Part shown: positions 6,936 to 11,347 of the stretch, in pieces
Position numbering within the stretch: position 1 is the stretch's first letter
How the letters are laid out: every line of letters begins with the position of its first letter
Assembly: GCF_000374845.1 (NCBI RefSeq)
Contig: NZ_KB895422.1
Location: 62,001-126,000 of the forward strand
DNA: 64,000 bases
Source: Paenibacillus terrigena DSM 21567
GTDB taxonomy: Bacteria; Bacillota; Bacilli; Paenibacillales; Paenibacillaceae
Reading direction: 5' to 3'
Translations under genes and position numbers: made by a program
Notes under the pieces: generated by a model
The model's database searches: none
Told to the model about the DNA's origin: nothing
The model's input: the letters and a program-made list of their open reading frames with translations, nothing else

Positions 6936-7061
6936 TTACTGCAACGGAAGCTGACGCAATCGTATCTCGGCTAAGAGCAGTCGGATAAATTCTCCCTCTA
7001 ACTGCAACTCTATCGCCTTATAATACGATTCTACCAATAGCTCATCGGATAGAATAGACAT
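6936..7061 (-). CDS. sda: Sporulation checkpoint antikinase Sda
   Basis: A 41-residue ORF. The sequence begins MSILSDELLVESYYKA and continues with an LxxxFI...EIRLR helix, closely resembling Bacillus Sda (a LSDELLIESYxKA helical hairpin). Sda binds sporulation histidine kinases and blocks autophosphorylation when replication initiation or DNA integrity is disturbed. The Shine-Dalgarno sequence (GGGAAGGAAG) is properly placed. The C-terminal tail is shorter than in Bacillus subtilis. In B. subtilis sda transcription is controlled by DnaA, and two or three DnaA-box matches lie directly upstream here (7142-7241). Identification is by sequence pattern and context. Confidence 0.85.
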   Translation of the reverse strand: MSILSDELLVESYYKAIELQLEGEFIRLLLAEIRLRQLPLQ

Positions 7062-7141
7062 CACACATACTTCCTTCCCTTTTATTTCCTGTTATTGAAT
7101 TTTACTATATCACGCACACGCAAACAGAACAAGCGTTCCGG

Positions 7142-7241
7142 TTATCCACACCACGTTGTGGAAATCCTGTGATCTAATTGTTAATAACTCCCAAATTAAG
7201 CGTACTTACGCCCTGTAATATGTGGATAATAGTTATTCACA
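7142..7241. promoter_or_regulatory. Cluster of DnaA boxes upstream of sda
   Basis: TTATCCACA is perfect at 7142-7150 and on the opposite strand at 7221-7229. TTATTCACA, which fits the relaxed TTATNCACA consensus, is at 7233-7241. A weaker two-mismatch site lies on the opposite strand at 7158-7166. All fall within 100 bp, starting 80 bp upstream of the sda start codon. This matches the known DnaA regulation of sda in Bacillus subtilis. Confidence 0.7.
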
Positions 7242-7351: not shown

Positions 7352-8014
7352 TTATTGCGGACGAGTATTCACCTCAAAAATCCAAATCTTCCCACTCGTA
7401 TCGATTCCATAATCAAACCCTAGCTGCCCTATTCCCGGAAATTTCCGCTCCAGAATTGTCGTAGACAACACCGTCAATTGCCGCATTTCGCTCTTCTTCG
7501 CTGCTACTTGCCCTCCTGAAAATGATCTTCTAATTCCTTGAGACGCTGACAACTTTGCCCCGCCCTTGCACAAATTCGTCACGAACAACCCTCGCCGCGC
7601 CAATCGGCCGACCATCGCACGAATTTCCCAATACTCTCTAACCTTCACAACTTTGACTCGATAATCGATCGGACGGCCATCTATTTTTGCTAAATGAATT
7701 CCACGTTGAATGATGTAACGGCGTTTCTTCTTCACGCCGCTAAGGGAGCGAAACAAGCGGCCGAAACTCCTAAATGACCGGTGCTTCGACATGGCTGTAT
7801 AGGAATAGGTCTCCCCTTCCTTGGTTACCTTGATGACGCCATAGCCTCCGCCACCAACAACCGGTTTAATTACGACCATACCATATGCGGACAACATGGA
7901 GTGTAGGTTTGCAGCATTGTATCTCTTTGTCTGAGGAATATGAGCTGCGATTTTAGCGTCAGACAGTAATACTGCTGTCTTAACCCATTTGTTAGCCAGT
8001 TGTCTTCCAGCCAT
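7352..8014 (-). CDS. YheC/YheD-family ATP-grasp protein (spore coat-associated type)
   Basis: 220 residues with an ATP-grasp layout: KPVVGGGGYGVIKV near residues 50-64 forms the glycine-rich ATP loop, and the C-terminus has a GFDYGIDTSGKIWIFEVNTRP metal/ATP-binding strand with the essential E-x-N. YheC/YheD relatives in Bacillus are endospore coat-associated and usually 360-450 residues long. This is a short form with the ATP-grasp core only. A good Shine-Dalgarno sequence (AAAGGGG) precedes the ATG. Substrate and ligase activity are unknown. Confidence 0.75.
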   Translation of the reverse strand: MAGRQLANKWVKTAVLLSDAKIAAHIPQTKRYNAANLHSMLSAYGMVVIKPVVGGGGYGVIKVTKEGETYSYTAMSKHRSFRSFGRLFRSLSGVKKKRRYIIQRGIHLAKIDGRPIDYRVKVVKVREYWEIRAMVGRLARRGLFVTNLCKGGAKLSASQGIRRSFSGGQVAAKKSEMRQLTVLSTTILERKFPGIGQLGFDYGIDTSGKIWIFEVNTRPQ

Positions 8015-8177: not shown

Positions 8178-8378
8178 TTGGAACAATTCGTTCAGAATCT
8201 ATATACCCTTAGCTATTATGCGATGGCTGTAATTCTTGTCCTTGTAACACTCTGTATCTTCGTTGTAGGGATTAAAATGTTCATCGATCGCAAACGCGGC
8301 ATCGGCAGCGCATTCGTAGTCTTCTCGATCCTCGCAACCGGAATGATCGCAGTTATGCTCAATCTAAAGTTTCTGTAA
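8178..8378 (+). CDS. Small two-helix membrane protein, 66 aa
   Basis: Starts at a TTG with AAGGAGG at 8162-8168. There are two hydrophobic segments (about residues 15-36 and 43-63) joined by a basic loop (DRKRG), giving a helical hairpin in the membrane with the loop probably cytoplasmic. The family is not recognised. It is monocistronic and ends at a strong hairpin terminator shared with the convergent Fe-S gene. Confidence 0.7.
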   Translation: MEQFVQNLYTLSYYAMAVILVLVTLCIFVVGIKMFIDRKRGIGSAFVVFSILATGMIAVMLNLKFL

Positions 8379-9128: not shown

Positions 9129-10238
9129 ATGACGACACTTGTGACAAGCCATACGGACTCTCGGATGGCAGAAATCATCGAAAAAGTACAGCGAGGAGAA
9201 CGTCTTTCACTGGAAGATGGCGTCTATCTGTACCAGAGTGACGACATATTAACCATCGGTCAATTGGCCAATGAGGTCAATCTTAAGAAAAATGGGAAGA
9301 AAGTCTATTTCATCGAGAACATGAGCCTCTATTTCACGAACGTCTGTGAATCCCGCTGTGCCTTCTGCAATTTCCGCAAAGATGAAGGCGACGAAGGTGC
9401 TTACACCCTTTCCGGCGCTGAGATGATCGAATACGTCGAACAGCATATCAATCCAGGTGTGCGTGAATTTCATATCGTTGGCGGACATAACCAACATGTA
9501 TCATTTCAATATTATGTCGATTCCCTTCGTGCACTGAATGAGAAATATCCAGATATTACCTTAAAGGCGTATACAGCCGCTGAAATTGATTTCTTCACAC
9601 GGATTAGTGGACTAAGCATTGCCGAAGTCCTTCAAGAGCTGATGAAAGCTGGACTTAAGACCCTCACAGGGGGCGGTGCTGAAATTCTCTCCGATCAATA
9701 TCGTGAGAAAATGCATGTGGACAAAGCGAATGTGGATCGTTATCTGGAAGTGCACCGTGTTGCTCATGAGCTTGGCTTGCGTACACATACAACAATGCTC
9801 TACGGTTCCATCGAGAGCCATGAAGATCGCGTTCGACATATGCTGCAGATTCGCGAACTTCAAGATGAGACGAATGGATTCATGGTATTCATTCCATTAT
9901 CCATGCAGCCGAAGAGTAAATCAGCTGATATTCGCCGCCGCAACTCAGCTTATGAAGACCTTAAGACCATTGCGATCAGCCGATTGATGCTCGACAATAT
10001 CCAACATATCAAAGCTTACTTCATTAATATCGGAACGCAGTTGACCCAAATGGCATTAGCATTCGGCGCATCCGATGCGCATGGAACCATTGTGAAAGAG
10101 CGAATCAGCCATGCTGCGGGCGCTCTAACACCTGAAGGCCTAACTCGCGCTGAGTTGATCTGGCTCATTAAAGGCGCGGGCCGAATTCCAGTAGAACGCG
10201 ATACGTTCTATAACGAAGTGAAGGTATATGAATCTTAA
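9129..10238 (+). CDS. mqnE: Radical SAM aminofutalosine synthase (MqnE-like)
   Basis: 369 residues. The radical SAM cluster motif CESRCAFC places cysteines at 73, 77 and 80 (CxxxCxxC). Downstream EFHIVGGHNQ, a GGGAEIL motif, HTTMLYG and PVERDTFYN match the MqnE/MqnC/CofH group, best MqnE. MqnE joins 3-enolpyruvoxybenzoate to SAM to make aminofutalosine in the futalosine route to menaquinone. No other mqn gene is in the window. It could be a related paralogue of different specificity. A strong Shine-Dalgarno sequence (AAAGGAGG) precedes the ATG. The next gene follows after about 50 bp. Confidence 0.8.
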   Translation: MTTLVTSHTDSRMAEIIEKVQRGERLSLEDGVYLYQSDDILTIGQLANEVNLKKNGKKVYFIENMSLYFTNVCESRCAFCNFRKDEGDEGAYTLSGAEMIEYVEQHINPGVREFHIVGGHNQHVSFQYYVDSLRALNEKYPDITLKAYTAAEIDFFTRISGLSIAEVLQELMKAGLKTLTGGGAEILSDQYREKMHVDKANVDRYLEVHRVAHELGLRTHTTMLYGSIESHEDRVRHMLQIRELQDETNGFMVFIPLSMQPKSKSADIRRRNSAYEDLKTIAISRLMLDNIQHIKAYFINIGTQLTQMALAFGASDAHGTIVKERISHAAGALTPEGLTRAELIWLIKGAGRIPVERDTFYNEVKVYES

Positions 10239-10285
10239 TTGAAGTTAAGGACAATTATTTGAGGCATACGGGGAGAGAGCTACTC

Positions 10286-11347
10286 ATGAAAAAATTGGTC
10301 ATCCTGGGCGGGGGCTATGGTGGACTTGCAGTTGCTAATCGGTTGTTAGAAGGTGAAATCCCGGTGGACACATCGGTGATGTTAATCGATCGCCAGCCCT
10401 ATCAAGGACTTAAGACAGAATATTATGCACTCGCAGCTGGTACAGCATCTGATCTTCAAATCCGCGTTGCCTTTCCGATAGACCCGCGAATTGAACTCAA
10501 ATACGGTGATATTACACGTATCGATTTGCAGGCCAAACATGTCTACTTAAATGCAGAAGAAGTTATTCCTTATGATCAACTTGTTATTGCACTGGGATGT
10601 ACAGATAAATTTCATGGTATTCTCGGCGCAGAACAATATGCAGAGAGCATTCAATCCTTATCACGAACACGCCGGACGTATCAGATGCTCAATGATGTGA
10701 AGCCTTACGGCCAAGTGAACATTATGGGCGGGGGTTTAAGCGGTGTCGAAGTCGCGGCTGAACTTCGTGAGAGTCGACCGGATTTGAACATTCGGATCAT
10801 TGACCGCGGACCTCGCGTACTCTCTGCTTTCCCAGAGAAGCTGTCCGCATTCGTCTCGGAGTGGTTCCACGAGCATCATGTCGATCTGAGCTCGCACATT
10901 TCAACGACCCAATTAGAGCAAGGCGGCATTATCCATCAGAACGGCGTTATCTATAGTGACGTTACCGTATGGACCGCAGGTATCCAGCCAGTTAAGCCAG
11001 TTCAAGACCTAGATGTTCCGAAGGATCCGCAAGGACGCGTTCTTCTTAACAACCATTTCCAAATTCCAGGCCATGAAGAAGTCTATGTGGTAGGTGACTG
11101 TGCTTCCCTCTCCTTCTCTCCAAGCGCGCAAGCTGCCGGAGCACAAGGAGAGCAAGTTGCAGATGTCATCCAAGCAGGATGGAAAGGTGAGGAGCCGAAG
11201 CTTGGCAAGATTAAGCTAAAAGGCGTTCTTGGTTCCTTAGGGAAGAAGAGTGGATTCGGACTATTAGGAAATAGAACGATGAAGGGACGTGTCCCTCGTG
11301 TCTTGAAGATGGGCGTCCTGTGGAGATCCAAGCATCATTTCGGTTAA
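10286..11347 (+). CDS. yutJ: NAD(P)/FAD-dependent oxidoreductase, NDH-2-like (YutJ-like)
   Basis: 353 residues from the ATG at 10286 (GGGAGAG upstream). The FAD loop GGGYGG lies at the N-terminus, a second GGGLSGVE nucleotide fold near residue 150, and VVGDCAS near residue 270, the standard NDH-2 architecture. It is shorter than the yumB-type enzyme at 3955-5151, with a reduced C-terminal membrane segment. In Bacillus the yutJ-yuzB-yutI order is the same. It probably oxidises NAD(P)H with a quinone or protein acceptor; the acceptor is not determined. It is likely co-transcribed with mqnE. Confidence 0.85.
   Translation: MKKLVILGGGYGGLAVANRLLEGEIPVDTSVMLIDRQPYQGLKTEYYALAAGTASDLQIRVAFPIDPRIELKYGDITRIDLQAKHVYLNAEEVIPYDQLVIALGCTDKFHGILGAEQYAESIQSLSRTRRTYQMLNDVKPYGQVNIMGGGLSGVEVAAELRESRPDLNIRIIDRGPRVLSAFPEKLSAFVSEWFHEHHVDLSSHISTTQLEQGGIIHQNGVIYSDVTVWTAGIQPVKPVQDLDVPKDPQGRVLLNNHFQIPGHEEVYVVGDCASLSFSPSAQAAGAQGEQVADVIQAGWKGEEPKLGKIKLKGVLGSLGKKSGFGLLGNRTMKGRVPRVLKMGVLWRSKHHFG

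Follow-up and report, generated by a model that had tools for sequence, protein, structure and literature searches.

The window, by which we mean the whole stretch of 64,000 nucleotides analysed here (Paenibacillus terrigena DSM 21567, contig NZ_KB895422.1, positions 62,001 to 126,000), carries a small gene for Sda and, directly upstream of it, DnaA boxes, a predicted SOS operator and promoter-like hexamers (Table 1). A first-pass annotation had called the 41-residue reading frame Sda, and the call is borne out by a match to the Pfam Sda family (PF08970) with an E value of 4.9e-16 and a score of 58.6 bits (cut-off 22.6). Among solved chains this protein matches three (3d36_C, 1pv0_A and 3fyr_A), all of them Sda proteins, and a search of NCBIfam with it gave nothing at E ≤ 0.001. 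Residues L21 and F25, given as the KinA contacts of Sda in the available part of PMC7430163, are present in the window's protein and are invariant across 13 aligned Sda sequences including it. The gene is confirmed as a real sda gene. Its shortened C-terminus, also pointed out in the annotation, stands when compared with the 46 residues of the solved chain 1pv0 and fails as a family feature, because the median length of Sda in the window's family is 47 residues; it is therefore a trait of the window's species group.

Table 1. Features of the sda locus in the window (positions counted from the first letter of the window; box scores are matches out of 8).
Feature	Positions	Strand	Remarks
sda	6936..7061	-	41-aa Sda; ATG at 7061, alternative start GTG at 7064
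Purine-rich ribosome-binding-like stretch GGGAAGGAAG	7070..7079	-	putative, read from the sequence
-10-like hexamer TATAGT	7104..7109	-	17 bp from the -35
-35-like hexamer TTGTTC	7127..7132	-	right half of the SOS operator
Predicted SOS/LexA operator GAACGCTTGTTC (GAACN4GTTC)	7127..7138	-	overlaps the -35
Proximal DnaA box TTATCCACA	7142..7150	+	exact; reverse orientation relative to sda
Weak DnaA box ATTTCCACA	7157..7165	-	6/8; at -15 from the proximal box
DnaA box TTATTAACA	7179..7187	-	7/8; at -37 from the proximal box
DnaA box TTATCCACA	7221..7229	-	exact; 12 bp from the distal box
Distal DnaA box TTATTCACA	7233..7241	+	exact; 91 bp from the proximal box

The three exact DnaA boxes lie 81-180 bp upstream of sda and span 100 bp, with 80 bases between the ATG and the nearest of them; the distance of 80 bp and the cluster of three boxes within 100 bp, two of one form and one of another, are as first annotated. 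Counted from the distal box, the boxes of the array stand at 0, 12, 54, 76 and 91, the middle ones being degenerate. The proximal box is 3 bp upstream of the SOS operator. We take GAACN4GTTC to be the Bacillus form of the LexA operator, and this form is valid in the window's organism too, since its genome holds one LexA match and the promoter of its own lexA carries two exact sites. Membership of the LexA regulon is recognized by an operator at the promoter together with the same operator at the organism's own lexA promoter, and both were found for sda; so was an array of DnaA boxes directly upstream, by which a DnaA-regulated sda promoter is recognized.

Conservation was measured over 151 sda loci from 138 genomes, namely the window and 150 loci of relatives. 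The loci were chosen, not drawn at random, as the best listed PF08970 matches across different genera, with some second copies added, and gene copies per genome are counted among the matches listed. An array was scored where the 400 bp upstream of sda held at least three boxes with 7/8 matches inside 130 bp. On this measure 128 of the 151 loci have an array, against 12 of 3,987 control windows cut from these loci; the boxes, whose absence from relatives the annotation had named as grounds for refuting its reading, are conserved. The 128 genomes concerned (of 138) belong to 74 of the 80 genera and 34 of the 38 families sampled. Second copies add three genomes (G093, G971 and G639), making 131, and in 7 of the 138 the array is absent from every fetched copy, including the second copies of G949 and G959. 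Density gives the same picture: within 300 bp upstream of sda the family, order and class sets have 6.3, 6.1 and 7.4 exact boxes per kb, against 0.03, 0.04 and 0.06 in the remainder of these loci, while the reversed pattern occurs once across all three upstream sets together.

The outer boxes mostly keep one spacing. Among 96 exact reverse-reverse pairs upstream of sda the distance is 90 bp in 47 and 91 bp in 32 (79 of 96 in all). A count of exact reverse pairs alone, which finds 87 of the 151 loci, was rejected as a measure of the array, being too strict: some families carry a proximal box with one mismatch, and we therefore recounted with one mismatch allowed. With up to one mismatch in the distal and two in the proximal box, an outer pair at 88-93 bp is present in 109 of the 128 arrays. 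A profile of box positions over 55 exact-pair loci, each from a different genus (background 0.0004 per position), places an extra box of at least 7/8 at +11 from the distal box in 71% of them, and boxes of the same quality at -37, -26 and -15 from the proximal box in 53%, 49% and 65%. An exact SOS operator stands beside 101 of the 128 arrays and at 1 of the 23 loci without array, and a promoter of the form TTGTTC-like, 17-19 bp, TANNNT is found at 124 of the 128 array loci. Within the protein, the spacing motif A-x4-L-x3-F occurs at 122 of the 128 array loci and 17 of the other 23. A near-fixed layout is thus common to most relatives examined, and the combination of array, SOS operator and promoter is probably ancestral to the sda-bearing Bacilli. 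The annotation's proposal of DnaA control over sda fits the conserved boxes and had missed the SOS operator; since the operator is also there, the conserved logic would be that of DnaA and LexA, not of DnaA alone.

The specificity of this layout for sda was assessed with the pattern TGTGNATAA-N0-4-GAACN4GTTC, the reversed pattern serving as control. In the window's family 89 of 148 genomes contain the pattern and one contains the control. Of the 91 family matches, 86 have a listed sda no more than 400 bp away, two further ones (G042 and G142) proved on inspection to be at sda, and three are elsewhere; with Sda present in 134 of the 148 genomes, the exact pattern stands at sda in 88 of 134. Family genomes without it have in part one-mismatch boxes and in part lost the operator. 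Across the class, 96 of 398 genomes have the pattern and two the control, with Sda in 163 of 398; family f159 mostly misses the exact pattern through a one-mismatch proximal box. Eight class matches without the TTGTTC half were fetched, and none had an Sda match. A scan of named genomes with a stricter pattern (genome_contigs, 84,980 species) returned at least 119 stretches. Among the 119 matches listed, 117 have Sda within 600 bp (E < 1e-5), and in 115 of these 117 a distal box lies 89-92 bp away; the remaining two stop 161 and 39 bases past the beginning of the site, and one has a weak Sda match (E 1.2e-4). We take the 80 titles listed to be Bacilli, save one titled only Bacillota bacterium. 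The pair of boxes alone (87-93 bp) is present in 113 of 148 family genomes (control, 1) and was rejected as a marker of sda, as it also occurs away from sda, for instance on contigs C6 and C9 of the window's own genome.

Some combined sites stand away from sda. At L228, L229 and L230 a DnaA box and an SOS site precede genes for similar proteins of 123-134 residues; one of the three, that of L229, was searched and has no match in Pfam or NCBIfam. In three families (L231, L232 and L238) DnaA boxes and GAACN4GTTC lie upstream of tsaC/ywlC-like genes, the one product searched, that of L231, being Sua5_yciO_yrdC; ywlC is another known DnaA target in B. subtilis according to excerpts of PMC4447404. 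Family f144 has a repeated TGTGCATAACCAGAAC-N4-GTTC stretch (L233, L234 and L235), one site being at a contig end.

The available text of PMC3533761 places sda in most bacilli and not in clostridia, and in our phylum set Sda was found in 12 of 398 genomes, all of the window's class. Eighty genomes were tested for Spo0A: it is present in 25 of the 25 with sda (22 class genomes and three reached through named loci; in G574 by a partial match) and in 48 of the 55 without, being absent in seven. Within this set, therefore, Sda occurs only alongside Spo0A, and Spo0A often without Sda. Bhargavaea and Filibacter, to our knowledge described as lacking spores, keep the sda module and Spo0A (L241, L290 and L281), with a weak Sda in the truncated L290.

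Activation of sda by DnaA and its repression by LexA are already known in B. subtilis. Direct activation by DnaA is stated in excerpts of PMC4447404 and PMC8203912, the former giving eight DnaA sites at sda and a preference for ATP-DnaA of about 50-fold at 55 nM, and the sda promoter is called a sensor of DnaA activity in the portion available of PMC6399470; one review, in the section available, describes the effect of DnaA on sda as indirect (PMC12448304). Passages of PMC11925247, PMC5445613 and PMC4689574 report repression by LexA, and passages of PMC7430163 and PMC5295017 report that Sda inhibits the kinases feeding Spo0A. The window shares with the B. subtilis promoter a protein of the Sda family, an upstream array of DnaA boxes and, opposite the LexA control known there, a predicted operator. 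The same grid is found at two loci of family f2 whose Sda is nearest to the Bacillus form: the outer boxes are 91 bp apart and GAACGATTGTTC follows, with the proximal box 154 bp from the start codon as against 89 bp in the window. The window differs from B. subtilis in its neighbourhood and in its 41-residue Sda, which is without the SS tail.

Because the same parts occur in the same order, the same logic is the best reading of the window. We consider it very probable that this stretch is an sda promoter module, with activation by DnaA and repression by LexA, through which replication or DNA damage would block sporulation; the annotated idea of a conserved DnaA-sda checkpoint is supported, as judged from comparison of sequences. 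By analogy with B. subtilis we infer DnaA activation, LexA repression and kinase inhibition in the window's organism. The phased array ends beside the -35, where replication-active DnaA would help the polymerase and switch sda on; LexA on its operator would cover the -35 and keep sda off until DNA damage removes LexA. Sda would inhibit the sporulation kinase here, and so stop the feeding of phosphate to Spo0A. A cell starting replication or repairing its DNA would then not sporulate, since the kinase feeding Spo0A would be blocked.

In two genera the parts of the module have been lost separately. In genus g17, LexA is present in 13 of 13 genomes and the exact operator stands at lexA in 12 of them, while the combined DnaA-box and SOS pattern occurs in only 2 of 13; the six sda loci fetched first all have the array and no exact operator. 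In genus g8 it is sda that is missing. PF08970 found Sda in none of the 14 whole genomes, and a hidden divergent Sda was dismissed after an HMM built from the examined sda loci gave a best E of 1.1 over 14 stretches of 14.0-14.5 kb; Spo0A is present in 14 of 14. Eight of these genomes nevertheless keep the array beside the oxidoreductase gene, at the place syntenic to sda of relatives. Its boxes stand at 0, 11, 19, 53, 64 and 90, exact at 0 in 8 of 8, 7/8 at 11 and 6/8 at 19; the proximal box at 90 is 6/8 in seven genomes and 7/8 in one, a box at 75 reaches at least 6/8 in six of the eight, and a further one at 182-194 is exact in seven and 7/8 in the eighth. Neither SOS operator nor sda promoter was seen in the examined g8 stretches. 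The array is degraded in G107 and missing from 5 of the 14 genomes, and the box pair search (87-93 bp) also matches in three g8 genomes. Once the columns fixed by the search pattern are set aside, the eight genomes agree fully in 28 of 36 box columns and in 9 of 34 spacer columns (p = 1.7e-5). The eight include a near-duplicate pair, G080 and G131; with one of the two left out, the full-array counts stayed the same (53/62 vs 11/37). Since box columns are more invariant than spacer columns, the g8 array appears to be under selection without sda.

It follows that conservation of the array is not to be credited to sda alone, and that retention of the boxes is not by itself proof of a checkpoint. 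With the grid kept in 8 of 14 g8 genomes without sda, SOS operator or sda promoter, the array probably does more than drive sda, a role such as DnaA titration being one candidate. On this ground the array might be kept mainly as a chromosomal DnaA sink that tunes initiation, regulation of sda being a second use, a reading that we hold possible without favouring it. The greater invariance of the g8 box columns speaks for a sink, and so does B. subtilis, where six DnaA-box clusters are proposed to hold DnaA away from oriC and their deletion leads to early initiation (available parts of PMC5295017 and PMC13220808, citing Okumura 2012). Those clusters, like the present array, are boxes arrayed outside oriC, and the sda region is itself one of eight regions of high-affinity DnaA binding in vitro (excerpts of PMC4447404); the g8 array would be such a cluster without its sda gene, with a titration role suggested by analogy. 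The datA and DARS elements of E. coli, in the sources as far as available non-coding DnaA-binding elements that tune initiation, are likened to it by role only.

The window's genome holds further clusters of DnaA boxes. In 6.36 Mb there are 270 copies of TTATNCACA against 170 of the reversed control (TTATCCACA alone has 68 positions, a full list), and the cluster at sda is matched or exceeded elsewhere. Ten stretches with many boxes were examined, chosen among the places listed; in them, five exact boxes stand at oriC by dnaA, five on the ydiF side, four at C9 287-525 and three at C22 6612-6704, so that the window's cluster is not unique in its genome. The reading frame beside the C22 boxes is presumably ribosomal protein S9, and the one downstream of the C9 boxes we take to be a sugar kinase, both names resting on the look of the sequence. 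Outside the window, the five exact boxes at C6:313055-313292 (L182, about 10055-10292) sit next to ydiF (ABC-F), with tsaD/gcp nearby and one small gene in between, which makes them a second such cluster and a point in favour of a sink. This is close to the place of a known DnaA-binding cluster of B. subtilis (excerpts of PMC4447404).

Against a sink stand the fixed geometry relative to the -35 and the SOS operator at most sda loci, the eight second sda copies of the family and the 5 of 14 g8 genomes without array, and the g8 proximal box, which is down to 6/8 in seven of eight arrays; titration alone, moreover, needs no fixed 90-bp grid, and the part of PMC5295017 available states that no clusters with significant roles in initiation control were identified in B. 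subtilis. In a related form of the idea, the array may be a rigid platform for DnaA assembly on a 90-bp grid that limits initiation and remains selected after loss of sda, its promoter and the SOS operator, the sda checkpoint having been built on it. We put this forward tentatively.

It is unlikely that the g8 array was instead rewired to the divergent promoter of a small membrane protein, so that the array always serves transcription. The protein is, by eye, a homologue of that encoded at 8178-8378 of the window, and a conserved -10-like TATGAT, also placed by eye, faces its gene 34-35 bp from the distal box. However, G107 keeps the -10-like site though its array is degraded, no -35 was seen at the divergent site in g8, and the window's 66-residue protein matches no Pfam or NCBIfam family.

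The promoter module of sda proposed here is found in several neighbourhoods. The usual neighbours of sda in the window's family are a YheC/D-like ATP-grasp gene on one side and, on the other, a small conserved reading frame followed by a pyridine-nucleotide oxidoreductase gene. Many Bacillaceae-like loci have it beside genes for a HAD-type phosphatase, presumably YqeG-like, and phosphatidylserine decarboxylase; in f159 a class-III aminotransferase gene lies by sda, and in f149 and f163 a ChlI-domain gene. One protein of each kind was tested for these identities. In each of these four settings the array is found. That it regulates the ATP-grasp gene (7352-8014, minus strand) and not sda is highly improbable: it does lie between the two genes, but at the 3' end of the former and upstream of the latter, and because it moves with sda through neighbourhoods in which the ATP-grasp gene is replaced by others, a role only for that gene is rejected. 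Least credible of all is that the copies of TTATNCACA came together by chance in AT-rich intergenic DNA, for although the motif is short and has 270 copies in the genome, none of 300 third-order Markov sequences as long as the window had three exact boxes within 100 bp, as the annotation's view of the cluster as unlikely by chance would have it, the six copies in the window (2.03 expected) were reached in 2 of 100 shuffles, and chance would not give the array at so many sda loci and so few control windows.

Some second copies of sda are without the array. In the window's family eight of them, at L081-L084, L086-L088 and L090, have no exact box in 500 bp, and four of these (L081, L083, L084 and L088) are paralogues lying between clpP and an HPr-like gene, without array. 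Some genomes of the order set have the array at the lower-scoring of their Sda copies (for example L099, L105 and L114). G061 has six Sda-family matches, with an array at one of the three copies fetched.

Taken as a whole, the regulatory DNA of sda is one near-rigid module, running from the distal box through a second one 11-12 bp on and the middle boxes to the proximal box at 90-91 bp, and then to the SOS operator and the -35. Such a layout suggests that DnaA forms a defined complex on this DNA, one open to structure determination or reconstitution, and g17, where most SOS operators are gone, and g8, where the array stands without sda, are natural tests of each part. Whether DnaA-box clusters outside the origin are gene switches, DnaA sinks or both becomes a testable question. 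In the literature as far as it was available we found no description of the near-fixed DnaA-LexA-promoter geometry throughout Bacilli with sda, or of the orphan arrays; they may stand in Burkholder 2001 or Okumura 2012.

The distance from the module to the gene varies. The proximal box is 75-99 bp from the start codon in the window's family, among the rows listed, and 110-251 bp from it in those of L131-L150 with an exact pair, several of which have a recurring TACCATTATATG-like stretch in between. On the other side, the window has no Spo0A-box core (TTCGACA; consensus from the available part of PMC5295017) upstream of sda, unlike 40 of the 48 class-set array loci outside its order (L131-L180); in its family 2 of 53 array loci have one. 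Where the distal box can be placed, 26 of 37 cores at array loci sit 26-29 bp upstream of it.
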